Shown here piece after piece: positions 1 to 48,016 of a DNA stretch of 51,792 bases. Numbering within the stretch: position 1 is the stretch's first letter; every line of letters starts with the position of its first letter. Source of the DNA: a virus. Where the stretch lies: the IMG/VR virus record IMGVR_UViG_3300043395_002133, positions 1-51,792 of that record, one strand, 5' to 3'. The translations under genes were made by a program, and so were the position numbers. The notes beneath the pieces are model-generated. The model was given only the letters and a program-made list of their open reading frames with translations. It made no database searches and was not told the DNA's origin.

Positions 1-517
1 GTAAGTTGTTTTGTTTGACAAAATTATTAAAATGAATTATTAAATTATCATATAGTTCGTATGAACCTTCTCTCCAATCTAAAATAACGATTACACAATT
101 TTTATGAGTTCTAATTAAATCTAAACTTTTTTTAGAAAATGATAATTTATCCAATCCATATAATTTAGCAGATGAGCGTATATCTGATTCTACTAAAAAT
201 ATATTTAAAACATCATCTTTTAATTCATTATCTATTATTTCATAAGGAGTTTTAAAATTAATAATTGGAGTTTTATGTCCTACATTATGAAATTTATCTT
301 TGTATTCTTTTACATAATTTAAAAAAGCACTATGAATATATGAAATAGAATAATCATGTCTATCATCACTCCTAATTATATGTGAATCGGAATCAGTTAT
401 TTTTTTTAATTGTTGCAGGAATATTTCTGGTAAATCGTTTTGAGCATACCCATTAAATAAATAACCATTTGGAGTTACATATTCACATACAATATTAATT
501 TTAGAATAACCACTCAT
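1..517 (-). CDS. Hypothetical protein, 3' end cut by window edge
   Basis: An open frame runs from an ATG at 515-517 to the window edge, giving at least 172 residues with no stop. The start overlaps the stop of the preceding LamG gene by one base (TAATG), the same coupling used by several neighbours, which supports the start and membership of the same operon. The visible part begins MSGYSKINIVCEYV and mixes charged and aromatic residues. I see no signal peptide, membrane segment or motif I recognise. Its place at the end of the glycan-modification cluster suggests a role there, but that is inference from context only. The remaining C-terminal part lies outside the window. Confidence 0.7.
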   Translation of the reverse strand, partial: MSGYSKINIVCEYVTPNGYLFNGYAQNDLPEIFLQQLKKITDSDSHIIRSDDRHDYSISYIHSAFLNYVKEYKDKFHNVGHKTPIINFKTPYEIIDNELKDDVLNIFLVESDIRSSAKLYGLDKLSFSKKSLDLIRTHKNCVIVILDWREGSYELYDNLIIHFNNFVKQNNL

Positions 518-1299
518 TAAACAATACTCTTTGTCTTTTTACTTATTTCATTCATCAATTCCATTTCATAATTTTTGAATGTTTCAATATACCATTGTCT
601 TTTATGTCTTAAATGATTTGAGTGACCTGATATATCTGCAATAGTTGCATATGTTTTAGGTTCACCATTATAGTGAAACCAAGTACTTTCAAAGGTAACA
701 TCATTCATCAAATCATCAAAATATATTTCATCTTCCAACACAATTTTTGGTGTAAAGAAATCAACTGCTTTTACATAATCAATTTTTCCTGCCCAAAATC
801 CATTATGTGGATATGTATTTTTATGATGATAAGCACAACCAATGTATGTATTAGACCAACTATAATCTACTAAATCACCGGTGTATTTATTTGATGATGC
901 CATCATTAGTTCATCTACTTCGTTGTAAAAACATACAACAAATTCTTTACCAACACTATCATGTGATACAAATACTTTTAACCACTCTTGATTTTCAATT
1001 TTGTGTGGTACAAACACATGATTAAATTTTGGGTCTGATTCTGGTGTTTCTTTTGTCCACCAATCAAATTTAATATACCCATCAGTAGTAATATACAATC
1101 CCAAGTGTAGACCAGGTTTTCCAATTACACAACATGCATTATTTTCTTCTGCATCTTTTTTTATAGAATCAAAATCAGTTTTGAATCTTGTAAAAAGTGT
1201 AAAATTTCCTTGTGTCCAAGCTGCTGAATTTTTATCTTTTAATCCATGTTGGTTTTCGATGCAAATCTCCCACCAATCTTTATAACCTATTTCTATCAT
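517..1299 (-). CDS. Stand-alone LamG/concanavalin-like domain protein
   Basis: This 260-residue protein has the pattern of a laminin-G-like jelly-roll. Alternating beta-strand segments carry a WLKVFVSHD strand near residue 105, a substrate-face loop NTYIGCAYHHK near 150, and the typical closing strand FWAGKIDYVKAVD near 168-180. A C-terminal YATIADISGHSNHLRHK segment resembles the DxSGxxNH signature that follows LamG domains in secreted lectin-like proteins. The same fold appears inside the three glycosyltransferases upstream, so this looks like a free-standing version that may bind a glycan or the product of those enzymes. The start overlaps the radical SAM stop by 4 nt (ATGA). No signal peptide is visible. 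The fold call is fairly sure; the ligand is unknown. Confidence 0.7.
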   Translation of the reverse strand: MIEIGYKDWWEICIENQHGLKDKNSAAWTQGNFTLFTRFKTDFDSIKKDAEENNACCVIGKPGLHLGLYITTDGYIKFDWWTKETPESDPKFNHVFVPHKIENQEWLKVFVSHDSVGKEFVVCFYNEVDELMMASSNKYTGDLVDYSWSNTYIGCAYHHKNTYPHNGFWAGKIDYVKAVDFFTPKIVLEDEIYFDDLMNDVTFESTWFHYNGEPKTYATIADISGHSNHLRHKRQWYIETFKNYEMELMNEISKKTKSIV

Positions 1300-2737: not shown

Positions 2738-4177
2738 TTAAAGTTTTACATTTATCAATTTTGCTTTGGGATTTATTTGTTCAATTCCAATCAAATCATA
2801 TTTTAATTGTGCTATTCCATCTGATTTATAATCCCATTTACCTTGTTGCATTTGTAAAACATACCTTCGTTCGTTTCTAGCAGTAGTTTCACCTTTTGCC
2901 CATTTATCAACACCGCCAACTTTAATCAATCCTTCATCAACATGAGGTAAACATCTCAAACGACCTGGTCTTCTATGTGGTATAATTGTATAAGGTATTT
3001 TTATTTCTTCTTTTTTATTTTCACAATTGTATGCTACTCCGTTATTTCCATTTTCACTTTTATCAAATACAATACCATCTTTAAAATCGTAATCTAAAAT
3101 TAAACCAGTATTTGGTGTAGTTTTTATTAAATCTTCAACTTCTGATTTTGATAATGCCCTATCCCACATTTTAACTTCTGCAATATCACCCTTAAACCAT
3201 TTATTCACATCATCGTTTGTTACTGATGTGGTTGTTCCTAAATAATAATCAACCATACCATAACGTTTTAACATACCTTCAAAATGTTGTGGTGAATGAG
3301 TACCTGTTCCATGTCTTGCATCAGATTCTTTACCATTCATATAAAAATGAATATTATTTTCATCTACAACTAATGTTACCAAAGTCCAACGATTTTCGTA
3401 ACGCTTCATCCATTGATATAAGTGTTCACGTTGGTTATTCCATAATTGTGCAGTGTATGCTCGTGAATTGTTATAACTTAATCCATAATCATATCCTGGT
3501 CTACGAAGAATAGGATATTCACAAAATCTGCGTTCAGTATCACCTACTAACCAAATAGGGACTTTTTCTTCTTGTTGGTGTGCTCGAACTAAAACTGAAA
3601 TAGTATGTGAACGCGATGTTAAATTTCTTAAACTACGAGTTGTTGGAATGTGAACATATGAACTTTTACCATCAAATGATAAAAAATCTTTTGGTTCTGA
3701 TGGAAATTTCATATATGAATCATCTGCATAACCTTCTAATACACATCTCCAAAATAAGTCATCATCTTCCATACCCCAATCCCAATAATCATTAGAATAC
3801 CCATTGGTTTTTTGGACTTGTTCTTTTGAAAAAATTACTGCACCACCAAAGTATTCTTCATACTTTAATTTATAATCCATTTGTGAGATATTAGTTGCAA
3901 TATGAATTGGCGTTTCAGTTGGAAATGAATAATCACATCCTTCTTCTGGTATCATATCAATATCATGCCAAACTATATAATCACACCCATCTTCAAATGC
4001 GTGTTTAGCTGCAACGTTTTTCATTGCACCCCTATTAAATAGTTTATCATCACATTGGTGACCAAAATAAATACAAAAATCTATACCTTGTTCGGTTAGA
4101 TATTTACTAACTGCAGGAATAAATTCTTTAAGATGTGTTTCTCTATTTCTATATGGTACACAGACTCCTAATTTCAT
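2738..4177 (-). CDS. GT7-type glycosyltransferase with inserted LamG domain (copy 1)
   Basis: Residues 1-150 match the catalytic half of beta-1,4-galactosyltransferases (GT7): VPYRNRETHL start, FNRG at 47-50, a DxD-like HDIDM at 71-75, YFGG at 109-112, NGYSNDYW, and the acceptor-site WGMEDDD at 134-140. A LamG domain follows at about 165-385 (FLSFDGKSSYVHIP, WFKGDIAEVKMWDRALS). The chain then returns to GT7 at about 400-479. CLPH there matches the metal-binding histidine region of B4GALT, and SDGIAQLKYDLI matches its DGLNSLTYQVL segment. The lectin domain is therefore inserted in the catalytic domain rather than appended. No signal peptide is present, so it probably acts in the cytoplasm on nucleotide-sugar donors. 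Its start shares one base with the next gene's stop. The acceptor is unknown. Confidence 0.85.
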   Translation of the reverse strand: MKLGVCVPYRNRETHLKEFIPAVSKYLTEQGIDFCIYFGHQCDDKLFNRGAMKNVAAKHAFEDGCDYIVWHDIDMIPEEGCDYSFPTETPIHIATNISQMDYKLKYEEYFGGAVIFSKEQVQKTNGYSNDYWDWGMEDDDLFWRCVLEGYADDSYMKFPSEPKDFLSFDGKSSYVHIPTTRSLRNLTSRSHTISVLVRAHQQEEKVPIWLVGDTERRFCEYPILRRPGYDYGLSYNNSRAYTAQLWNNQREHLYQWMKRYENRWTLVTLVVDENNIHFYMNGKESDARHGTGTHSPQHFEGMLKRYGMVDYYLGTTTSVTNDDVNKWFKGDIAEVKMWDRALSKSEVEDLIKTTPNTGLILDYDFKDGIVFDKSENGNNGVAYNCENKKEEIKIPYTIIPHRRPGRLRCLPHVDEGLIKVGGVDKWAKGETTARNERRYVLQMQQGKWDYKSDGIAQLKYDLIGIEQINPKAKLINVKL

Positions 4178-5619
4178 TATAAATTTACTTTTATATGTAA
4201 AACATTATTTGAAATTGTTTCATTTGATATTTCTTCATAACGTAGTGTATTTAATCCATCTATATGATAATCCAAAATACCAGTTCTAACTTCGTTGTAA
4301 TATTTTAATTGATTTTTTCTAGTTTCAGAATGAACCCATCTATTACCAACTGATGAATTTGATTTATGTTTTAAAGATTTGAATTTACTTTCTCTTCTAT
4401 GTGGTTTTGGTAAAAATGTTTTAAATGATTGATTTAATTTTTCTAATTCAACATTATATAATTTTGCTTTATATTCATTTGCTAAATCAATACAAGTTTC
4501 ATCGGTTGATAATTCTGCTAATAATTGAAAATACAAAAATTCTGCAGATTGATATTTTCCAAAATTTCTCATTTTTGGTTTTATAGGATTTTTATATAAT
4601 TCCAATACTTCTACTTCTTCTAATGCAATATCGTACATTTCAACACTTGCAATATTTCCATAGAAAAAATCTTTATTATCTTTTTTACCATTTGCTGCAC
4701 CAATGTATATCTTATCAGTTAATAAATTTAAGATATCCTCCTTCATTACAACTTTATCAATTAATTTACCATCCAAATAAAAATAAACTTCCTTTGAATC
4801 TTTTAGTACCATTACTAAGTGAACCCAACGTTCTCCTAATATATCCGTTGTAATTGAATATGGAGTTTTATCCATATCATAAGTTTGACAGAAAAATCTT
4901 CTAAATGAATTATAGAATATACCAATATTATAACCAGGAATTGATACTATTGGTAATTCATCGTATGTTTTATTCGGATTTAATTGAATATCAGATGGTT
5001 TAACCATTACTGATATTGTAAAATCATCTGATAATGCTGTTGATTTTTTTATTTTTGTTAATTCAATAAATGATACATCTCCATCAAATTTAAATGTTTC
5101 AAAATCTTGTATAGTAGCATCACCACTACTTTCAGTGTCTAATTCTAAATTAGATTGTAAACAACGAATTAACAAATCGTCATCTTCAAACCCCCAACCC
5201 CAATATTCATTAGAATAACCATTTATTCTTGCAAAATCTTCTTTGTTAAAAAGTGTTACACCTCCAAAATAATCAAAAAATGTAGTTTCATAATCATTCT
5301 CTTGTAAGTGTGTTGCAAGATGTAGTGGTTTATCAGTATATGAGTAATCTACTTTATAAGGTAACATATCAACATCGTGAAATACAAAGTAATCACAATT
5401 ATTTTCGCATGCAATCTTATACCCAATATTTAATAATTTACCACGATTAAATGGCTTATTATCACATTGTTCAATTACAAAAATCTGATAAACATAATCA
5501 CCTAAATAGTTTTCCATATGAGTTAAAAATCTTTTTAATTGATTTTTTCTATCTCTATATGGAACTATTACAGCAAGTTTATTCGGTTTCTTCTTCACTT
5601 GTTGTTTCTCTTTCCGCAT
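4177..5619 (-). CDS. GT7-type glycosyltransferase with inserted LamG domain (copy 2)
   Basis: This is a paralogue of the neighbouring enzymes, about 480 residues. The GT7 half carries IVPYRDRKNQL, FNRGKLLNIGY, FHDVDMLPY, YFGGVTLF, NGYSNEYWGWG and FEDDD, the best match of the three to the B4GALT WGWGxEDDD motif. A LamG segment follows (FDGDVSFIEL ... FYGNIASVEMYDIALEEVEVLEL). The C-terminal GT7 segment contains SLKHKSNSS and IDGLNTLRYEEI. I chose the ATG at 5617-5619; a GTG one codon upstream is also possible. The start lies inside the 3' end of the 80-residue gene at 5579-5821, an unusually long overlap of about 41 nt. It probably transfers a hexose to a phage or host glycan; donor and acceptor cannot be read from sequence. 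Confidence 0.85.
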   Translation of the reverse strand: MRKEKQQVKKKPNKLAVIVPYRDRKNQLKRFLTHMENYLGDYVYQIFVIEQCDNKPFNRGKLLNIGYKIACENNCDYFVFHDVDMLPYKVDYSYTDKPLHLATHLQENDYETTFFDYFGGVTLFNKEDFARINGYSNEYWGWGFEDDDLLIRCLQSNLELDTESSGDATIQDFETFKFDGDVSFIELTKIKKSTALSDDFTISVMVKPSDIQLNPNKTYDELPIVSIPGYNIGIFYNSFRRFFCQTYDMDKTPYSITTDILGERWVHLVMVLKDSKEVYFYLDGKLIDKVVMKEDILNLLTDKIYIGAANGKKDNKDFFYGNIASVEMYDIALEEVEVLELYKNPIKPKMRNFGKYQSAEFLYFQLLAELSTDETCIDLANEYKAKLYNVELEKLNQSFKTFLPKPHRRESKFKSLKHKSNSSVGNRWVHSETRKNQLKYYNEVRTGILDYHIDGLNTLRYEEISNETISNNVLHIKVNL

Positions 5620-5821
5620 CACGTGATGGTCTGTTAGTAGGACCTACTGTTTTAGCTTTAGCAAGTTGATAAAATTCATTTAAATACCATTCAATTCTTT
5701 CAGACCAAATATCGGTTTCCATTGAATAAACCCAATCATTTAAATCTTCTAAAGTGTTTGCAATAGATTCTAATGCTTTTACTTTTCTTTCCTCTAATGA
5801 GTTGTCTTTTTTTTCTGCCAT
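5579..5821 (-). CDS. Small acidic hypothetical protein
   Basis: This 80-residue protein begins MAEKKDNSLEERKVKALESI and is mostly predicted helix: a charged N-terminal amphipathic stretch, an aromatic middle (WVYSMETDIW, IEWYLNEFYQ) and a disordered Glu/Thr-rich tail. No catalytic motif is visible. It sits between two GT7-LamG genes, 10 nt after copy 3 and overlapping the start of copy 2, so it is probably translationally coupled to them and could be a partner or scaffold. That is inference from position. No homologue is recognised. Confidence 0.65.
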   Translation of the reverse strand: MAEKKDNSLEERKVKALESIANTLEDLNDWVYSMETDIWSERIEWYLNEFYQLAKAKTVGPTNRPSRDAERETTSEEETE

Positions 5822-5831
5822 TTTTATTTTA

Positions 5832-7319
5832 TTATGTTGTTATTCTATATTGAATATAACCCATTTTTTGTTTAGTATCCAATACATTATATTTTAAACT
5901 ATTTAATCCATATTTTTTAAAATCAACTAATCCTTCTAAAACTTCATTGAAAAATATATCTGCGTTTTCTTCAACATCGGGGTCATAGTTGTAATAACGA
6001 TTTATAATATTCGTGTCATCTTTGTGAACTAATGATTTATATGGAGCATCAATTCTAACTGGTAAATACATTTCATCTGATAAATTTATAGTTTCACTAA
6101 ATATTGAGTATTTTCCTTCTACTTTTATATGATTACCAGATTTACCTTTATCTAATTTCATTTCTTCAATACCACTTACATTGTACATCGTATCAAATCT
6201 AAAAATATTAGTTGGAACTAATCCATCAATACTAGCAAGTTTATCTAAGTAATCGATACCCTCATAATATAATTTTCTAAGTTGCTCATCATTTAATGCT
6301 TCATCAAATGTTATTATATCTGCCATTTGAATAGAAGTTTCTGATTCTGAAATTTTTATACATCTATCAGAATAATCAAACATTTTAAATTTATACAAAT
6401 CTTTTTCTTGTATTTTTTTATTGTTTAATATAACTTTAAGTTTATCTTTTCTTTTGTCATATATTAAAACAGCATTGTTCCATCTATTTTTGTAATATTC
6501 GACTGAAACATCCATATGATATTCTTTCTTATCCCAAATTTGACCATTTAAATAACGATTTCCCAATACATCTTCCGATAAAAATAAACCAGTATCTGGT
6601 CCATCAAACGCAAATAAACTAATTTTTTCTAAAGTTTCGGATGTGTCTTTAAACCACAATGAAATTGTAAATGATGAATCGGTAAATCCTTTCATCAATG
6701 AATTTTGTGGTCCATACATTTTTGTACCTTTTGGTAAATTAATACCTTTTATTGTATGAGTTTTATGTATATTTGAAATTTCAGCATCTTCTATTCTATA
6801 TGGTAAAATATCCCATTTATCGTAATATGAATAAATCTGATGTAAATCATAATATTTTTCTAAATACGCATCCGATTTTTCTAAACGTTTTAATAAATCC
6901 AAATCTTCGAACCCATATCCCCAATATTCATTAGAATATCCGTTTGCAAATTCAAAATCTTCTCTATTAATTAAAATAACTCCACCAAAATATTGTGGGT
7001 ATGGTAATTTATGATTGTGTGCTTCAACGTTTGTTGCTAAATGTATTGGAGTTTCAGGATAACTATAATCACATTCATCCGTTAATGGTAACATATCTAT
7101 ATCGTGAAAACAAAAATAAGTGTAATCTTTTGATATTTCGTTTACTACTGCATTACATAGTTTACCATAGTTAAATGGTCTATCGTCTGCCTGTTCTGCC
7201 ACAAATATAGTATAATCAATTCCCTTATCTAAAAGGAATCTATTCATGTGTGGTATGAAAACGTTTAAATGGTCTTCTCTATCACGATACGGAACTATTA
7301 TTGCTAATTTATCTTTCAT
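5832..7319 (-). CDS. GT7-type glycosyltransferase with inserted LamG domain (copy 3)
   Basis: This is the longest of the three related enzymes (495 residues). GT7 elements are IVPYRDREDHL, FNYGKLCNAV, FHDIDMLPL, YFGGVILI, NGYSNEYWGYG and FEDLD, where the third acidic position of EDDD is replaced by leucine. The LamG insert spans about residues 190-365 (SFTISLWFKD, IQMADIITFDEALNDEQL). The chain returns to the GT7 fold near 420-495 with YKSLVHKDDTN and KYGLNSLKYNVL, matching the histidine and DGLNSL segments of animal B4GALT. It overlaps the upstream GT2-like gene by 4 nt (ATGA). The altered acidic motif may mean a different sugar specificity or lower activity. Confidence 0.83.
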   Translation of the reverse strand: MKDKLAIIVPYRDREDHLNVFIPHMNRFLLDKGIDYTIFVAEQADDRPFNYGKLCNAVVNEISKDYTYFCFHDIDMLPLTDECDYSYPETPIHLATNVEAHNHKLPYPQYFGGVILINREDFEFANGYSNEYWGYGFEDLDLLKRLEKSDAYLEKYYDLHQIYSYYDKWDILPYRIEDAEISNIHKTHTIKGINLPKGTKMYGPQNSLMKGFTDSSFTISLWFKDTSETLEKISLFAFDGPDTGLFLSEDVLGNRYLNGQIWDKKEYHMDVSVEYYKNRWNNAVLIYDKRKDKLKVILNNKKIQEKDLYKFKMFDYSDRCIKISESETSIQMADIITFDEALNDEQLRKLYYEGIDYLDKLASIDGLVPTNIFRFDTMYNVSGIEEMKLDKGKSGNHIKVEGKYSIFSETINLSDEMYLPVRIDAPYKSLVHKDDTNIINRYYNYDPDVEENADIFFNEVLEGLVDFKKYGLNSLKYNVLDTKQKMGYIQYRITT

Positions 7320-8164
7320 ATATCAAGTATAATTCTTGTCAATTTATCCCACTTTGAATAATCAGAATGAGTATTAGTATCCATCTTTTCTAACATAAAC
7401 AATGGATTATTTATATCAATTTTCCAATCATTTATTTGGATACCTCTATACATTTTTTTATATTCTTTCCAAAATGTATAATCTTCCTTAGTTTCTGAAA
7501 CTTCTTTTAATCGTTTTAAAACTGTGGAATCCCATTTAAAATGATGAACTTGTATGAATCCTTCACCATTTCCATATGGATAACGTTTTGGATGATTCCA
7601 ACCCCTTTCTCTCCAAGTATCAACATTATCAATCTTTGCATAATGTTGACCGGGGGTAACGTCAACATATCCTTTCATCACACAAACCTTATTAGGACAA
7701 GCCCCACTCATTGGATATCTAAAAAACCCAGCGAGTGGAAACTTTTCCCAAATATTAGAGTCTTTCTCAACGATTGGAAATTCTCCATTTTCTCCTATCC
7801 TATCAATGAACCCACCTGTTATAAAATCCCAACCATTTAACTCACATTCTGCAATAAGTTCTTTGATTGGTTTTGGATAAATGTGAAATTCATCATCGTC
7901 TGAAACTACCCACCATTCGTTCGGTTTGGTACGTTTAATTTCGTTATATAGTTCAGTTACCTTTTCCCAATTAAACTTTGGTTCAGTAACTACTTTTATA
8001 GGTGTAATACCTAATTTTTTTACTTCATCTAAAATTCCATCGTTTGAATTTTGTCTATAAACAATTACATGAATTTCATCAACAATTGGTTTGTAATGTT
8101 CAATCATATGACCCAGCATCGTTGTGTTGTGTCCTACTACTGTAACTAAATTTATTTTTGACAT
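7316..8164 (-). CDS. Glycosyltransferase, GT2-like (GT-A fold)
   Basis: This 282-residue protein starts with a Rossmann-like NLVTVVGHNTTMLGHMIEHY segment followed by DEIHVIVYRQNSNDG, as in the Glyco_tranf_2_4/GT92-like group. The metal-binding acidic cluster VVSDDDEF lies near residues 96-103, followed by an HHFKWDSTVL segment typical of the C-terminal part of this group. It overlaps the upstream methyltransferase gene by 13 nt and the downstream GT7-LamG gene by 4 nt, so the three are almost certainly co-translated. It probably transfers a sugar in the same glycan pathway. Donor and acceptor are unknown. Confidence 0.8.
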   Translation of the reverse strand: MSKINLVTVVGHNTTMLGHMIEHYKPIVDEIHVIVYRQNSNDGILDEVKKLGITPIKVVTEPKFNWEKVTELYNEIKRTKPNEWWVVSDDDEFHIYPKPIKELIAECELNGWDFITGGFIDRIGENGEFPIVEKDSNIWEKFPLAGFFRYPMSGACPNKVCVMKGYVDVTPGQHYAKIDNVDTWRERGWNHPKRYPYGNGEGFIQVHHFKWDSTVLKRLKEVSETKEDYTFWKEYKKMYRGIQINDWKIDINNPLFMLEKMDTNTHSDYSKWDKLTRIILDI

Positions 8165-8922
8165 CTTTTAACCAATGTTAGACCAGTAGAAGCTGGTTTA
8201 TTTTTTTGTATTCCAAAATTGAAAAGGTCGAATACTTCCCATTCTGAATTTTCTTTTAATTCTTTGGCAAATTTAATTGGTCCATGCCAATCATCAAAAT
8301 CCCCCCTATCCTTTACCTCATTTGTAATAATATAATTATCTGCATAATTGGGGTCAGTATCATGGATTGAAACAATAGCGTTTGGTGAAAGTATTTGCGA
8401 ATATAATTCAAAATCTTCTTTTACATTTTCATAACTATGTCCTGCATCAATATGAAGATAATCAATTTTAATATCATTAAGAACAAAAAAATTGTGAAAT
8501 GCCTTTTCAGTTGTTTCACTTATAATGCGTGGGTGAAATGTTCTTCTAAGAAATGATTCTTCTCTAAACCAATCTACATTTCCACCAATACCATTCATTG
8601 CATCAACAACATAAGTAACACCAATATCACCCCAACTTAAATTATTATCACCTTCGAATATTTTTTGTTGATGTAAATCATAACGAGCTTGTGTCATTAA
8701 ACGAGGAATGAATCCTCCACCACTCCCTAAGCAAACACATACCTTTGCTCTCATATATTGAATAAGAGAATATACAATCAAACCATCACCTAAATGTAAA
8801 TCAGTTGAACCATGTGACCAACGATATGGGACTGGTTTATCTTCAATTTCTTGAGATTCGTTAAATTCCTGATTGTTTGTTAGATTGTTTTTTAGATATT
8901 CTAAATCTTGTAATGATTGCAT
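8152..8922 (-). CDS. Class I SAM-dependent methyltransferase (Methyltransf_24-like)
   Basis: This 256-residue protein has the glycine-rich SAM loop VCVCLGSGGGFIPRLM near residues 81-96. The strand-loop YLHIDAGHSYENVKEDFELY near 155-175 and IVSIHDTDP near 185 are characteristic of the Methyltransf_24/cephalosporin-hydroxylase-like group that often modifies sugars. It is the first gene after the 189-nt gap at 8923-9111 and leads the run 8922-1, overlapping the next glycosyltransferase by 13 nt. Sugar O-methylation within the glycan-modification cluster is the likeliest role by context; the substrate is not visible. No strong ribosome-binding site precedes the ATG. Confidence 0.8.
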   Translation of the reverse strand: MQSLQDLEYLKNNLTNNQEFNESQEIEDKPVPYRWSHGSTDLHLGDGLIVYSLIQYMRAKVCVCLGSGGGFIPRLMTQARYDLHQQKIFEGDNNLSWGDIGVTYVVDAMNGIGGNVDWFREESFLRRTFHPRIISETTEKAFHNFFVLNDIKIDYLHIDAGHSYENVKEDFELYSQILSPNAIVSIHDTDPNYADNYIITNEVKDRGDFDDWHGPIKFAKELKENSEWEVFDLFNFGIQKNKPASTGLTLVKRCQK

Positions 8923-11925: not shown

Positions 11926-13143
11926 TTATACTGCACAATATCCACTTCTAGTAAATAATCCACTATTATTTATAGTACCATACGCATTTCCATCGGAATA
12001 AACAAATCCTCCTCCGGTGAATGTACTACCAACGGAATCATAATAAGTATATCCATCTATTAATCCATTGGCGGTTGAATGATATAATGTATATTGAAAT
12101 GTTCCGGCTCCATAATGTTCACAAGCGGTTGTTCCTTTTCCTAAACTACCATCCCCACTCGTACCTTGAGATACAATAAAATTTGTAGCAGTATTACTTC
12201 CTCCACTTGTAGTAGTTGTAGTAGTTGTAGTTGTAGTAGTTGCTACATAACAACTCAACGCCGTACCCATTCGTTTATCAGTTGCGTTACCAAAATTATC
12301 TCTAATTCTAGTTCTATATAAATATCCATCAGATAATCCACTTAGAATATATGATGTTGCACTTCCTATGTCTATAAGATTTGTTTCTAAATCCAAATCG
12401 CCTACTGATAATCCCCAAATCAAATATTTTAAAGTACCACCACCGGCAATGTTTGTTATTTCCAAATAACCATTTGTTCCACTTGTATCATTACATCCTT
12501 GTGAATTTAATGTATATGTAATTGGTGCTAAAGTAGTAGTTGTAGTGGTTGTAGTTGTAGTGGTGGTTGTAGTAGTTGTACAATTTACAGTAACTGCTGT
12601 ATTTTGAACGGCAACTAAACCATTTGAATCCATAACCGCAACATACCAAGTACCATTAGGAACACCACTCCAATCATGTAATGCAATACCACTTGGTGTA
12701 GTTCTAACACCAGATGCAGAACCACCTGTTCCTGCTACTTTTTGAGCAACATTTGCTTGCGAAGTATCATATGCAACATAAGAATAAGTGCCACTACCCC
12801 CGCTAAATGAACTTCGCCATCCACCGGTTGTTCCACTACATGATACACCACCATTTGTTACTGTTAATGGTGGTTGTGTGGTTGTAGTTGTAGTTGATGT
12901 AGTTGTAGTTGTAGTTGTTGATGTTGTAGTAGTTGTTGTAGTGGTTGTTGTTGTTGCACCACTTTTACCATGAAAATCATCAAAAGAAATAGTAGAACCT
13001 GCAGTTGTTTTTCCTGCAAGAGTTCTAACGGCAGTATCATCCATACTAATTTGTGCAGTTGCATTTAATCCTAATACAGCCGCAACATCAGTTGTAGGGT
13101 CACTACCTCCAAGATTTATTACACCACTAGCATTTAATGCCAT
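11926..13143 (-). CDS. Tail adhesin with poly-threonine linkers
   Basis: This 405-residue virion protein starts with a domain of about 60 residues (MALNASGVINLGG ... TISFDDFHGKSG) that I recognise from many marine phage tail proteins. Three threonine-rich linkers (residues about 64-89, 189-204 and 302-312) then separate compact beta-rich modules, one with GGSGTYSYVAYD resembling the SprB-type repeats of gliding Bacteroidota adhesins. Cysteines are few and roughly one per module edge. Such low-complexity Thr tracts act as rigid stalks and are good O-glycosylation substrates. The gene is coupled to the long fibre by a one-base overlap and is followed by glycosyltransferases. It is probably a receptor-binding or fibre-tip protein. 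Confidence 0.75.
   Translation of the reverse strand: MALNASGVINLGGSDPTTDVAAVLGLNATAQISMDDTAVRTLAGKTTAGSTISFDDFHGKSGATTTTTTTTTTTSTTTTTTTSTTTTTTQPPLTVTNGGVSCSGTTGGWRSSFSGGSGTYSYVAYDTSQANVAQKVAGTGGSASGVRTTPSGIALHDWSGVPNGTWYVAVMDSNGLVAVQNTAVTVNCTTTTTTTTTTTTTTTTLAPITYTLNSQGCNDTSGTNGYLEITNIAGGGTLKYLIWGLSVGDLDLETNLIDIGSATSYILSGLSDGYLYRTRIRDNFGNATDKRMGTALSCYVATTTTTTTTTTTSGGSNTATNFIVSQGTSGDGSLGKGTTACEHYGAGTFQYTLYHSTANGLIDGYTYYDSVGSTFTGGGFVYSDGNAYGTINNSGLFTRSGYCAV
12208..12240 (-). repeat. Thr-tract coding repeat (third linker)
   Basis: A run of eleven threonine codons, mostly ACT/ACA, gives a near-perfect triplet repeat on the DNA (GTAGTT units on the plus strand). Confidence 0.8.
12532..12579 (-). 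repeat. Thr-tract coding repeat (second linker)
   Basis: Sixteen consecutive threonine codons in mixed ACA/ACT/ACC usage form a GTAGTT/GTGGTT-like triplet array on the plus strand. This could expand or contract in frame. Confidence 0.8.
12877..12954 (-). repeat. Thr-tract coding repeat (first and longest linker)
   Basis: About 26 codons that are threonine except for two serines. The triplet-repeat DNA could change length by slippage without shifting the frame. Confidence 0.8.
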
Positions 13144-18387: not shown

Positions 18388-18552
18388 ATGAATAAGTACA
18401 CTACAATTCAAATAAAAAAAGAAACCCACGAACTATTACAAGAATATTGTAAAGAACGTGGGTACACCTTAAGCGGATTAGTTGAGCAGTTGATTAAACA
18501 AAAAATCAATCAAACACCCAAACCTACTAATATATTACGCGTTAATACTTAA
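18388..18552 (+). CDS. Ribbon-helix-helix (Arc/CopG-like) DNA-binding protein
   Basis: This is the only plus-strand gene in the window: 54 residues from the ATG at 18388 to TAA at 18550-18552. YTTIQIKKETHELLQEYCKE gives the N-terminal DNA-contacting beta strand (TIQIKK) and helix A. The RGYTLSGLVEQLIKQKI stretch that follows has the turn and helix B pattern of CopG/MetJ/Arc repressors. The last 15 residues are a short tail. It converges on the SbcDC fusion gene, overlapping its 3' end by 11 nt, and diverges from the tail-fibre gene. No Shine-Dalgarno site is visible; a tandem 9-bp repeat abuts the start. It probably represses its own promoter and possibly the fibre promoter. Confidence 0.75.
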   Translation: MNKYTTIQIKKETHELLQEYCKERGYTLSGLVEQLIKQKINQTPKPTNILRVNT

Positions 18553-21500
18553 CGTGACTAAAACCTTCTACTTTTTTAATTTCGATTAGACCATCAACTA
18601 CATCTCTCATAGAATCGATGTGAGATATAATCATCACAAAATCAAATTGTGTCTTCAAATAGGTAAATAACATAAATAGTGATTGTAAATTCTCACTATC
18701 CAATGTACCGAACCCTTCATCGATTACTAAGAAGTTTGGACGAGGTAAGTTACATACATTGATTAAAGCAACTCTAATTGCAAGTCCTGATATAAATCTC
18801 TCCATACCACTACACATCTCCAAAGACCACTTATTATCACCATAAACAAGGTAAGCATTGATGTTTTTACCATCCATCTCTAATTGCATTCCAAACTCAA
18901 CAATTTGTGCAAGGATGTTATTTACCTCACCTTCAATCATTGGTAATGCTTTTTCAATCAATTCGTATGATACACCATCCTTACTCAAGGAGTTTAAATA
19001 ATACTCATATAATTTGGATTGTTCTTCTAATTCTTTAACCTCACTAATCTTTGCCTCAAGAATTTCTTTTTGTGATTTAAGAGATGAAACCTTACCATTT
19101 AATTCTAAAAGTTTTTTATTTGTCTTTGTAAAGTTTTTCTTAACCTCATCTAATGTTTCTCTTTTAGCCTTAATTTCTTCTCTAATTTCACCATTCTTTT
19201 TAATTTGTTCTTCGTTTTGGTGATACTCTTCTATTAGTTTAATTTGGTCTGCAATTTGAGTTTGAATACGAATTTCTTCGGTTTCAGATGCAGATAACTT
19301 ATTCATTAGAGTTGAAATTTCCCTATCAACTTTACCTTCTTTTTCTTTAGTTTCAACTAAATTATTCCAATCAGTTTCATATGGAGTTAATTCATTCATT
19401 TTGATTTCAGTAATATCACGAGTATGTATTACCTGATTATATTCTTCCCAAATTTCCGCTAAGGATTCTTCAACATCTTTTTTGGATTCTAAAATAGTTT
19501 TAGAATTCTCCATGCAAATTTCACAATTTTCATTATATTTGTGAGAATCTAAGTGAGTTTTCTTATCCGTTAATGAATCAATTTTTATATCTAATTTTTC
19601 TAATTCATGTACTGCAGTACTAAAATCTTTTCTAGCAACCTTTAATACTCCAATCTTATCTTCTAATTCTTCTTCATCAAATCCATCAATAATTTCTTCT
19701 AATTGTAGTTGTAATTCCTCTAATTTAGAAATACGGGTTTGTGTTTCACCTTTGGTTTTTAAAATTTCTTCTTCTTTAGCAACAAGAATTTTTTTACGTT
19801 TTTCCAATTCATCAATTCCAACTAAATCCGAATTAAGTTTTACAATTTTACCATTCAAACGAATTAAATCTTTGTTTAACCCATCTTCTTCATCTTTAAT
19901 TCCGCCCAATTCAATCTCAACTAATTTGTATTCAGATTTGTTTTCTTTCAAATTAGTTTCAATTTCAGCAAGTTTAGAAGTGAAATCATCTGATTTAAAT
20001 TTCTTAATTAAAGTTGCGTTTTCTCTATTCTCATCTGATGCTAATTGATATAATTTATCGAAAATATCCACACCAATGAATTGTGATAAAATCTCCTTAC
20101 GTTCTGCTTGTGATTTATCAATGAAGAGTGCGTTGTTACCTTGTAACGATAATGATGTTAAAACAAAATCTTCAAACTTACCTAAGTATTTCTCAATATT
20201 TTTGTTAGTATCTCTACGTTGTTCTCCATTTAAGGATGTAGTTATACCACCATCTTCTTTCCAAAAGTTTACGTTTACCGAAAGGTTAGTTCCCTTTCTA
20301 GTCCACTTTGCACTTCGTTCGATGAAATAATCAACCCCATCAATCTCAAAATTAAACTTACAATAGAAGTTATCTTTTTGATTATTTAGGATGTTTTTTG
20401 ATGAAGATGTACGAGATGTTTTATCAAAGATACAAAATGAAAGGGCATCAAACAAAGATGATTTACCACTTGCATTGGGTGCAAAAATACCAATCACACC
20501 TCTTGCATCTTCGAATCTAACTTTGTTACCTTCGCCATACGAAAACATATTACTGAACTCCAAAGTCTTAGGTGTCCATAAAATATTCTCAGCTAATGTA
20601 GAATCATCAATTCTCGAGTTTACCTCTTTATTTATTTCAGAAATCTTGTCTAAATCAGAATCTTCCAATAGGAATTGTCTTTCTAAGTAATCTCTGATAA
20701 GTTGGTTTTGGAACGTTTCATCCTTCACATTACCAACAATATTTTTGTTTAGAGCAGAGTTACGTTTTAATTGACCAATAGTATCAGTTCGTGTAACTGT
20801 CACCTCAGCAACGTTAAATAATTGTTTTAATTCAGTAATACGAAGTTTCATATCAGATGCTTCAGTATTAGTAAATCTCAATCTTAAACGAGGATTTTTA
20901 GGTAATTTCGTTCCAACCTCATCATATACCCATTGTGGTATAACACCATCAATTACATCGATTGTAAGGAATCCATAATCATTATGGATATGATGTTCGG
21001 TAAAAGTACGAGTAGGTACATCCCATATTAGATAACCATGATTTTCCAACATTTCACCATGATTTTGTTGAATCATAGAACCTGCATATGCAACGTGTTC
21101 ATAACCTGCACCGAATGTTTGACGTTTATGAATATCACCCATCATAACCATATCGAATCCATCGAACATATCGACAGTGAATGAATTTGATGATACTACA
21201 TATCCAATATCAGTTTGTGCTTTGTTTACCGGTCCGTGGAAAAGACAGATTTTGTTTTCGCCTTCAATTTCTTCTGCCTTTGGCCAATTTTCCTTTTTAT
21301 CCAATATGGAATAAACGACAAAAGTAAGATTGTGGTGCTGATAAACACCAGTATCGCGAAGATAATGAATGCGAGGATTTTGAAGATTATCAATAATGGG
21401 CGTAAGAACATCTAATCTATGTGTGTTGTTTAGGTTACAATCGTGGTTTCCCGTAATTAAAAATGTTTCGCGTAACTTAGAACATTCAGTTAAAAACCAA

Positions 21501-21697
21501 CTTATCTCCTGTATTAATTCAGGTGACATTTCAGTTTTAGCATGAGCAATATCTCCTGCTAAATAAATAATAGAATCTTCAATTTTATCATCTTCTACTT
21601 GTTTCAAAAACTTTTTGAACACCTCACGATATTCTTTATGTCTTTGTAAGTTTCTGATGTGTAAATCAGCTAAGTGGTATATTTTGTTTACTATCAT
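18542..21697 (-). CDS. Fused SbcD-SbcC (gp47-gp46) recombination nuclease
   Basis: In T4 these are two proteins; here they are one chain of 1051 residues. The N-terminal Mre11-type phosphoesterase shows LADLH (D11, H13), LAGDIAH near 46-52, ITGNHDC near 101-107 and later GDIHKRQ. The Rad50/SbcC part begins near residue 375, with Walker A FAPNASGKSS near 403-412, coiled-coil arms, and a zinc-hook CEIC near 724. It ends with the signature CSGMERFISGLAIR near 960, Walker B FLVIDEGFGTLD near 990, and an ISHID H-loop. It should process DNA ends for recombination-dependent replication. Its start overlaps the primase stop by 4 nt, so the two are co-translated. I see no frameshift or internal stop. 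Confidence 0.95.
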   Translation of the reverse strand: MIVNKIYHLADLHIRNLQRHKEYREVFKKFLKQVEDDKIEDSIIYLAGDIAHAKTEMSPELIQEISWFLTECSKLRETFLITGNHDCNLNNTHRLDVLTPIIDNLQNPRIHYLRDTGVYQHHNLTFVVYSILDKKENWPKAEEIEGENKICLFHGPVNKAQTDIGYVVSSNSFTVDMFDGFDMVMMGDIHKRQTFGAGYEHVAYAGSMIQQNHGEMLENHGYLIWDVPTRTFTEHHIHNDYGFLTIDVIDGVIPQWVYDEVGTKLPKNPRLRLRFTNTEASDMKLRITELKQLFNVAEVTVTRTDTIGQLKRNSALNKNIVGNVKDETFQNQLIRDYLERQFLLEDSDLDKISEINKEVNSRIDDSTLAENILWTPKTLEFSNMFSYGEGNKVRFEDARGVIGIFAPNASGKSSLFDALSFCIFDKTSRTSSSKNILNNQKDNFYCKFNFEIDGVDYFIERSAKWTRKGTNLSVNVNFWKEDGGITTSLNGEQRRDTNKNIEKYLGKFEDFVLTSLSLQGNNALFIDKSQAERKEILSQFIGVDIFDKLYQLASDENRENATLIKKFKSDDFTSKLAEIETNLKENKSEYKLVEIELGGIKDEEDGLNKDLIRLNGKIVKLNSDLVGIDELEKRKKILVAKEEEILKTKGETQTRISKLEELQLQLEEIIDGFDEEELEDKIGVLKVARKDFSTAVHELEKLDIKIDSLTDKKTHLDSHKYNENCEICMENSKTILESKKDVEESLAEIWEEYNQVIHTRDITEIKMNELTPYETDWNNLVETKEKEGKVDREISTLMNKLSASETEEIRIQTQIADQIKLIEEYHQNEEQIKKNGEIREEIKAKRETLDEVKKNFTKTNKKLLELNGKVSSLKSQKEILEAKISEVKELEEQSKLYEYYLNSLSKDGVSYELIEKALPMIEGEVNNILAQIVEFGMQLEMDGKNINAYLVYGDNKWSLEMCSGMERFISGLAIRVALINVCNLPRPNFLVIDEGFGTLDSENLQSLFMLFTYLKTQFDFVMIISHIDSMRDVVDGLIEIKKVEGFSHVKY

Positions 21698-45555: not shown

Positions 45556-47271
45556 CTATTTAATTTTTTTCTTAACGATATAATTTCCTAATACTAATGT
45601 ATCCATTTCACAATCTAAAAAAGTTTCTATTGCATCCTTTGGTGAATTTACAATTGTCTTATCTTTTAAATTGAATGATGTGTTTAAAACGATTGGGTAT
45701 CCATTATCAATTTCTAATTGATTTAGAAGTGAATACATTCTTCTATGCTGTCTATTATTTAGGGTTTGAATTCTTGCAGAACCATCGATGTGAGTAATTG
45801 CAGGTAAATTGTTTCGGTGTTCTTCTAATACCTTAACAACCTGATTCATATAAGGAACTAATAGTTTGTAATCAAAATATTTTAAACGAGTTTCTTCTTT
45901 TACGATTGGAGCAAAAGGTCTAAAACCTTCTCTCTTTTTGATTACTCTATTTACTCTACTTTTCATCTGTGGGTCTCTTGGGTTAGCAAGTATAGAACGA
46001 TTACCGAGTGCTCGAGCACCAAATTCCATTCTGCCTTCGTACCAACCAATAACATTTCCATCCGTAATTTGTTTAGAAATGATTGGAATAAGTTCGGAGT
46101 GATTTTTGTATTCATACCATATATCATTTGAATGTTTATCTAATTCTTTTTTAATTTCATCGTTTGAATGATGTGGACCTAAATAGGGATTCGTATTATC
46201 AACTCTGATAGGATTTTCAGTATGAGTATAATAATATTCCAACGCACAGCCAATTGCAGAACCAGCATCAGATGGAGCAGGTGGAATCCATAATTGTTTA
46301 TATGGAGTTTCTTTTGTTATTTTTCCGTTAGCAGTTCCATTATATGCACATCCACCACTTAAACAAATATTATTAGATGGGTGAATAGCAAACATTTTAT
46401 TTAATAAACGGAAAAAGAAATATTCATATTGTGATTGAATTGTTGCTGCTAAATCCTTATGATGTTGTTCTAATTCATCTTCTGGTAATCGATTTGGAAA
46501 TCCGAATAACAATCCTAATTTCTCATTAAACATTGTTGAATTTGAATAATCGTATGTAAAATAATCCATATTGATTTCAAACCCACCATCTTCGGTTTCT
46601 GTAATAAGTTCTTTAAAATGTTTTGTATAAACGTTTGGATTACCATAGGGTGCAAGACCCATAACCTTATATTCACCTTCATTTGGTTTGAATCCTAAAA
46701 ATGCTGTGAATGCAGAATAAATCATTCCCAATGAGTGTGGGAACTTAACATTTTGAATTTTTGTAATTTTATTATTCTCTGCAAATGCTAAAACTGTTGT
46801 TTCCCATTCACCAACCCCATCTACTGAAATGATTGCAGAACGGTCAAATGGTGATGTGTAATAAGAATATGCAATATGAGAAAGATGGTGGTCTCCATAT
46901 GATAAGATTATTTTATCATTTGTGATTTGGTAAATTTTACGTTCCGTTTCCTTATATTGTTTTTTATTTTCGTTGATAATCGAATTACGTTTGAAGTATT
47001 GTAATACGCCACCTCTTTTAGTAGTTTCTTCAATACGTTCCAATTTTTTAGTAGGATTTTCATAAAACGAAACTACCGATACATCTGCACCGGTAATTTT
47101 GAATTCGTTATACAACCAATTAATCGCATTTGTTGGGAATGAAGAATCGTGCTTAATTCCTGTAAATCTTTCTTCTTCTACTGCACCTAAAACTTTTCCA
47201 TCTTTTAATAAACATGCAGCTGAATCGTGATAACCACATGCTATTCCTAAAATATATTTATTCGTCATCAT
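45556..47271 (-). CDS. Carbamoyltransferase, NodU/CmcH/TobZ family
   Basis: This protein of about 571 residues begins MMTNKYILGIACGYHDSAAC, the N-terminal Kae1-like ATPase half, followed by VLGAVEEERFTGIKHD. LSYGDHHLSHIAYSYY supplies metal-binding histidines, with IISVDGVGEWET next. FGARALGNRSILANPR and GFRPFAPIV are hallmark blocks, and LNTSFNLKD marks the C-terminal domain. The family moves a carbamoyl group from carbamoyl phosphate onto a sugar or antibiotic hydroxyl group. In a phage the acceptor could be a glycan or a modified nucleotide. The start lies inside the sigma gene's end: ATG 47271 or 47268 are best, while GTG/ATG codons up to 47286 are also open. It probably shares the sigma transcript. 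Confidence 0.9.
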   Translation of the reverse strand: MMTNKYILGIACGYHDSAACLLKDGKVLGAVEEERFTGIKHDSSFPTNAINWLYNEFKITGADVSVVSFYENPTKKLERIEETTKRGGVLQYFKRNSIINENKKQYKETERKIYQITNDKIILSYGDHHLSHIAYSYYTSPFDRSAIISVDGVGEWETTVLAFAENNKITKIQNVKFPHSLGMIYSAFTAFLGFKPNEGEYKVMGLAPYGNPNVYTKHFKELITETEDGGFEINMDYFTYDYSNSTMFNEKLGLLFGFPNRLPEDELEQHHKDLAATIQSQYEYFFFRLLNKMFAIHPSNNICLSGGCAYNGTANGKITKETPYKQLWIPPAPSDAGSAIGCALEYYYTHTENPIRVDNTNPYLGPHHSNDEIKKELDKHSNDIWYEYKNHSELIPIISKQITDGNVIGWYEGRMEFGARALGNRSILANPRDPQMKSRVNRVIKKREGFRPFAPIVKEETRLKYFDYKLLVPYMNQVVKVLEEHRNNLPAITHIDGSARIQTLNNRQHRRMYSLLNQLEIDNGYPIVLNTSFNLKDKTIVNSPKDAIETFLDCEMDTLVLGNYIVKKKIK

Positions 47272-48016
47272 AATCTTCATCACCACTTATTGAATCGGGT
47301 GATACCCAAAAAGGTTCATCTCTTACTGAAAAATCACCTTCTTCTAAATAATCGTTTAACATTTTTTTCTGATGTTGTTTCATTATATTTACCACTTTTG
47401 TGATATAATGAGTCTTGCAATCAGTCATCTCTCTAATAAGTAGATATAAATGTTTTTTGTTAAAATTTTCTATATAATCACTTCTACGGAATAATTCCAA
47501 TACCGCATCTGCAATTTGTATATCTCTTTTTTTATTAAATATGGTTGTTAAATGTTTATCCCAATAGGCTAACATTATATCTTTAAATTCTCTGAATTCA
47601 GTTCCTTCTTCGGTTTCGTAAAAATCATTCTCAGGATTCCAACTTTCAGGCATTTCAGATATTAAAGCATTTTGTTTCCAACGTTTGTAGTTTCCGTTGT
47701 TTTTTAGAATCAAATGATTCTTTGCAATGATGGTAAAATAAGAGAATGCTCTACCCTTACCTTCTTTATACATATGCATTTTTTCTACCATAGTAGAAAC
47801 TACTTCCATTTGTATATCCTTTTTAGATACATCAAAATATGAAAACTTAAATGTATTTAATACGTTTTCTGCTAACTTTTCAAAAGGATATTTAATTCTT
47901 TCTTCGTAAATTTTAGAACGTTTTACGGGGTCTTTACATTTATTGTATTCTACTATTGCATCTTGTGCAGGTGTTCCAAAATATACTTTATCTTTTGGTT
48001 TTCTTGTTTTTGCCAT
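47258..48016 (-). CDS. Late transcription sigma factor, gp55-like
   Basis: This 252-residue protein begins MAKTRKPKDKVYFGTPAQDA. IKYPFEKLAENVLNTFKFSY and DIQMEVVSTMVEKMHMYKEG, followed by KGRAFSYFTIIAKNHLIL, match the sigma region 2 remnant of T4 gp55. RWKQN and DYLEEGDFSV lie in the less conserved second half. In T4, gp55 directs host RNA polymerase to late promoters with a bare -10 element and needs the sliding clamp and gp33. Here the TATATTTATA elements before virion genes are the candidate targets. The gene overlaps the carbamoyltransferase start and lies 1 nt after a membrane-anchored small gene. Confidence 0.88.
   Translation of the reverse strand: MAKTRKPKDKVYFGTPAQDAIVEYNKCKDPVKRSKIYEERIKYPFEKLAENVLNTFKFSYFDVSKKDIQMEVVSTMVEKMHMYKEGKGRAFSYFTIIAKNHLILKNNGNYKRWKQNALISEMPESWNPENDFYETEEGTEFREFKDIMLAYWDKHLTTIFNKKRDIQIADAVLELFRRSDYIENFNKKHLYLLIREMTDCKTHYITKVVNIMKQHQKKMLNDYLEEGDFSVRDEPFWVSPDSISGDEDYDDE

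Follow-up and report, generated by a model that had tools for sequence, protein, structure and literature searches.

LamG lectin-type domains predicted within the catalytic fold of tandem phage GT7 glycosyltransferases

The window analyzed here, a virus record, covers 51,792 bases and carries three intact genes in tandem on the minus strand, named A, B and C in the order of their transcription. Their products are most likely glycosyltransferases of family GT7 (the beta-1,4-galactosyltransferase family) in which a LamG lectin-type domain splits a predicted GT-A fold. In the explanation that we favor, which we hold to be probable but well short of certain, these LamG-split GT7s have a single origin, the LamG domain binds the acceptor, and the enzymes belong to a cassette with a shared target.

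Architecture and the C-terminal tail

Each open reading frame (ORF) encodes a GT7 N-terminal half, then a LamG-type beta-sandwich, and at its C-terminus a GT7 tail; the boundaries given for these parts are approximate. Copy A (5832-7319, minus strand; 495 aa) has its N-half at ~6855-7319, the insert at ~6060-6854 and the C-tail at ~5835-6059. The corresponding parts of copy B (4177-5622, minus strand; 481 aa) are at ~5134-5583, ~4405-5133 and ~4180-4404, and those of copy C (2738-4177, minus strand; 479 aa) at ~3716-4177, ~2978-3715 and ~2741-2977. The Pfam models GT7N and GT7C are matched by A (5.9e-22 and 7.9e-18), B (2.4e-21 and 5.6e-20) and C (1.3e-16 and 6e-20), in each case far over the cut-off. 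Laminin_G_3 is matched by B (4.9e-15, 56.4 bits) and C (1.6e-14, 54.8 bits) over the cut-off, whereas the match in A (7.7e-4, 20.1 bits) falls under the cut-off of 27.6. The DxD motif, the catalytic Asp of WGxxEDxD and the C-terminal metal-binding His are present in all three. As A and C are only 31 and 34% identical to B, the copies are old paralogues. The layout is not due to chance, since all 99 aligned relatives match both GT7 models (E 0.001) and 91 of them match Laminin_G_3.

An initial annotation of this DNA had described tandem GT7s each split by a LamG domain, and this is borne out for A, B and C by Pfam, by profiles and by uninterrupted relatives; the CLPH, SLKH and SLVH segments and the DGLN-like segments also lie where it had placed them. 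Two of its measurements need adjustment. The N-half, said to end just after WGxxEDxD, ends near that point but runs ~15 residues further, as a helix and short strand in the model. A LamG core is present in the insert, which had been put at 180-220 residues, but the whole insert spans 222-297 residues (medians 247-258 among relatives), longer because of linkers on both sides of the core.

AlphaFold models were obtained for B (pLDDT 93.8, pTM 0.90; 99 sequences) and A (pLDDT 86.8, pTM 0.80; 23 sequences). In the model of B, the xED helix (146-156) and a short strand (162-166) lead into the beta-sandwich, beyond which a strand just ahead of H419, the C-terminal histidine, is followed by a helix at 432-445 and a last pair of strands; as modeled, this order of elements is that expected for GT7. 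The insertion site is flanked by the last core strand on its N-terminal side and by the metal-binding C-terminal histidine on the other. By our own mapping HV3 starts here; GT-A enzymes have three such hypervariable regions, which are tied to acceptor choice (PMC7185993). The insert is strand-rich in the models of A and B and superposes on LamG-type domains in Foldseek. The superposition on B4GALT1 envisaged in the initial annotation was obtained for the N-half (153 columns at 1.2-1.4 Å; 2 Å for A), but N-half and LamG were aligned separately and the C-tail was never aligned across the gap. The packing of the two GT7 halves into one predicted GT-A fold is supported indirectly, by pTM and by homology. 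Among the viral matches listed from BFVD, none spans the whole layout.

If a LamG domain separates it from the rest of the enzyme, is the C-terminal piece truly GT7? A profile of the C-tail, run against 745 ORFs of bacterial GT7 loci, matched GT7 ORFs only (best E 1.6e-9), nearly always immediately C-terminal to the N-half, and alignment of phage and bacterial tails with hhalign gave a probability of 98.8% (E 1.1e-16). Most of the GT7 proteins recovered in a scan of bacterial genomes have 190-350 aa, and N-terminal additions lengthen some others; RxGxYxxLxH and DGLxxLxY come directly after the WGxxEDxD segment, with no insert. One uninterrupted bacterial example, L085, is 54% identical over residues 4-166. 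One bacterial GT7 used as query found no viral relative, but an alignment used as query found uninterrupted phage GT7s (L195-L268) of ~204-279 aa, in most of which the N-half adjoins the tail. The empty insertion site is therefore present in bacteria and phages alike.

The alternative is that the last 75-80 residues are an unrelated tail joined to a GT7 fragment, or that the layout is an assembly artefact. No Pfam model spans these residues, and against solved B4GALT1 the tail is colinear but not significant by itself: the C-tail profile reached B4GALT1 at E 0.12, among unrelated matches of similar score, and the full profile, which matched B4GALT1 in the PDB at E 5e-56 through its N-half, gave a second, colinear stretch with an i-E of 4.7. 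Both are contradicted, however, by the restriction of the tail profile to GT7 ORFs, the hhalign result, the empty site in both bacteria and phages, and the occurrence of this layout in ~250 distinct sequences. Either version is exceedingly improbable, and is refuted as far as sequence comparison can refute it. Compared with its uninterrupted relatives, the C-terminal piece is GT7, as the initial annotation had proposed.

Ancestry and catalytic residues

Two or three neighboring LamG-split GT7s occur in aquatic phages, and ~250 distinct proteins share the layout (250 full-length or near full-length, a few of them from genome assemblies). Their ancestry was examined with quick trees in which many inner branches are modestly supported: in a joint tree that combined N-half and tail, with 63 interrupted, 27 bacterial and 39 uninterrupted phage sequences, a single branch (SH-aLRT 91) separates all interrupted forms from the rest, with no loss of the insert seen within the interrupted clade, and separate trees of the GT and LamG parts recover the A, B and C classes with 3 and 2 label changes, respectively (minimum 2, shuffled mean 27). 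Classes were assigned by best BLAST match to the window copies. The simplest history suggested by these trees is a single insertion in an ancestral GT7 followed by triplication, the LamG and catalytic parts descending as a unit. Taken with the tail profiles, the model of B and the empty-site relatives, the joint tree gives good support to the earlier proposal that LamG lies inside the catalytic domain and not at an end.

Two individual sequences deserve mention. A B-type gene (L202, 2992-4440), one of the 250 sequences scanned, has the RxGKYxxLxH strand on both sides of the LamG insert, possibly a footprint of how the insert arose. A C-type LamG-split GT7 (L086, 2965-4455) adjoins an LRR-kinase ORF in a bacterial assembly, so that phages may not be the only carriers of the layout.

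All 100 B sequences and 101 of the 102 C sequences retain DxD and the equivalents of D318 and H347 (201 of 202 together). The sole exception in C is misfiled: this gene (L176, 3104-4594) was classed as C but groups with A in the joint tree. A Tyr occupies the position equivalent to Tyr289 in 199 of the 202 B and C sequences; in B4GALT1, Tyr289 favors UDP-Gal over UDP-GalNAc. On this residue pattern, the most likely reading of B and C is as active inverting transferases that depend on metal and take a UDP-hexose, probably UDP-galactose, as donor.

The initial annotation had treated the three copies as equals. Within the window A keeps the key residues, but in relatives it is often degenerate: the key residues are complete in 28 of 48 A-type relatives, and at least one is lost in the other 20. 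The degenerate A genes are still under purifying selection, with pooled dN/dS values of 0.08 for the N-half, 0.13 for LamG and 0.26 for the tail (7 close pairs; dN/dS was taken from close pairs, as distant ones are saturated). In some phages A is probably an active enzyme, in others probably a pseudo-enzyme that is nonetheless maintained. EXT1 and EXT2 are a known pair of active and inactive glycosyltransferases, and the likeness lies in a maintained pseudo-enzyme (A, in some phages) beside paralogues, B and C, whose residues suggest activity.

The cassette and the role of the inserted domain

The three genes lie in a cassette with the order methyltransferase, GT2, A, small ORF, B, C, radical SAM, found in more than 100 locus rows (some records are counted twice, here and in the row counts below) and often adjoining a tail fiber gene. 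B and C are near-universal across these rows; A is present in about half. In the window all members are on the minus strand. The methyltransferase (8152-8922; Pfam Methyltransf_24, 2.7e-11; 111 locus rows) and the GT2-type glycosyltransferase (7316-8164; Pfam Glyco_tranf_2_4, 3.8e-6; 119 rows) are followed, between A and B, by an ORF of 80 aa (5579-5821) that overlaps the start of B and has a homologue in the same position in 61 rows. Adjoining C is a radical SAM protein with a twitch domain (1296-2711; NCBIfam NF033640, 6.3e-99; 123 rows). Its candidacy as a viperin-type defence gene was rejected, the weak defence-model match being outscored by the twitch radical SAM model.

LamG is not confined to the GT7s. 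A free-standing LamG-like protein of 260 aa (517-1299, minus strand) matches a profile of the inserted LamGs at 2.4e-16 and has no Pfam match; among 48 distinct loci with the radical SAM gene, the same profile found a solo LamG ORF downstream of C in 37. The radical SAM protein of L164-L166 and L180 has a LamG-like domain fused on its N-terminal side (L164, 7891-10692; L180, 7858-9966). No LamG was detected with this profile in the cassette GT2 and methyltransferase, a point against the explanation that we favor. The strongest evidence for a common target addressed by LamG is this re-use of one module by several cassette enzymes, and the module's presence in a free-standing protein and sometimes in the radical SAM enzyme suggests that the cassette probably has one shared target.

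The cassette is common in environmental virus collections but absent from the isolate phage collection searched, in which no relative of the A, B, radical SAM or GT2 protein was found at 1e-5. By its baseplate wedge protein, the virus is a distant neighbor of Microcystis phage Mel-JY01 and Flavobacterium phage immuto. Other genes of the window were also noted. The ORF at 11926-13143, which adjoins a tail fiber, is mucin-like, with Thr/Ser tracts of up to 26 residues; as a target of O-glycosylation it was rejected, since only 1 of 45 related virus records has long Thr tracts and the ORF is therefore no companion of the family. A Nol-like carbamoyltransferase (45556-47286; PHROG 1601, 2.1e-118), a sugar-modifying type of gene, has homologues near the cassette in L064 and L083 also. 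An ORF of 1051 aa (18542-21697), in which SMC/SbcC-type regions come after a Metallophos domain, resembles an SbcD-SbcC fusion.

In such a cassette, what would be the role of the inserted domain? LamG is most likely the acceptor-recognition module. It would bind the acceptor, a glycan or glycosylated protein, and present it to the GT7 active site, which would transfer a hexose from a UDP-sugar onto the bound acceptor; the cassette as a whole would act on one target, which could be a virion adhesin or else the precursors of host surface glycans. That LamG may hold the acceptor glycan beside the active site fits with insertion at the start of HV3, the high pTM and the re-use of LamG in the cassette.

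The occurrence of LamG in several cassette proteins could equally be expected of a docking or assembly module that binds protein and not sugar, joining A, B, C, the radical SAM protein and solo LamG in a complex or tethering them to the virion. The purifying selection on degenerate A genes, in their N-half and LamG, would also suit a structural partner. However, the matches of the insert's sequence among solved structures include sialidase lectin domains, which favors glycan binding, and a position at the acceptor-side HV3 is unnecessary for mere docking; we regard docking as unlikely, though far from negligible.

A second alternative to acceptor recognition is that the enzyme merely tolerates the insert, as a spacer or solubility domain looped out of the fold and of no effect on catalysis. 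The N- and C-termini of LamG folds are close together, making insertion structurally cheap, and LamG is the fastest-diverging part of these proteins: mean identity is 0.26-0.38 in LamG and 0.55-0.64 in the catalytic half. This faster evolution counts against acceptor recognition, fitting a weakly constrained spacer as well. Yet the insert is kept in ~250 distinct proteins, the joint tree shows no loss of it within the interrupted clade, its dN/dS of 0.09-0.13 indicates purifying selection, and paralogue-specific LamG residues are conserved. Conserved surface positions in the LamG of B include D221, S239, R242 and Y282. A mere spacer is accordingly quite improbable. Acceptor recognition can also be carried further, to a dedicated phage modification system where a single LamG-type module would steer all the enzymes to a common target, with A a dead lectin-bearing partner in some lineages; this broader proposal is tentative, and somewhat more doubtful than not.

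Precedents and significance

Animal B4GALT enzymes are Golgi type II membrane proteins. Those of CAZy GT7, B4GALT1 and B4GALT7, resemble the phage proteins in their GT-A N-half (37% identity over 153 columns) and in DxD, WGxxEDxD, the C-terminal histidine and a DGLNSLTYQVL-like tail, but are without the insert, and the phage ORFs start directly at the GT7 domain. The nearest relatives in sequence are uninterrupted GT7s of bacteria and phages (for example, L085 and L201), which share N-half and C-tail but have no LamG. Every GT7 feature that gave a clear result is found in the split enzymes, and judged by these features the layout is a variant within the GT7 family.

The nearest precedent for such a layout is PGAP4, in which a GT-A fold is split by two membrane helices thought to bring the catalytic cavity near the acceptor (PMC5785973). 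It shares the split GT-A fold but is eukaryotic, not GT7, and interrupted by helices rather than a lectin. A lectin-type beta-sandwich is inserted within the catalytic domain of Vibrio cholerae sialidase, which likewise places a lectin inside a catalytic domain but is a hydrolase with a propeller fold. In polypeptide GalNAc-transferases a lectin domain guides acceptor choice; this lectin is ricin-type, however, and appended at the C-terminus. These enzymes (GT27) form a related GT-A clade (PMC7185993). In the host recognition cluster of pelagimyophages, tail fibers, glycosyltransferases (GT8 being the main family) and radical SAM cassettes occur together, and modification of host surface glycans has been proposed for the glycosyltransferases, but the text names neither GT7 nor LamG (PMC7029224). 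The initial annotation knew of no described enzyme with this layout, and no LamG-split glycosyltransferase was found in the literature searched, with subscription papers mostly outside its scope.

If our reading is correct, a lectin within the catalytic domain of a glycosyltransferase could set acceptor choice from inside the fold, and not by way of an appended lectin. How lectin modules steer glycosyltransferases would become testable here, since the uninterrupted phage relatives allow direct comparison. The conserved cassette, in turn, points to an undescribed phage route for the modification of glycans or proteins.
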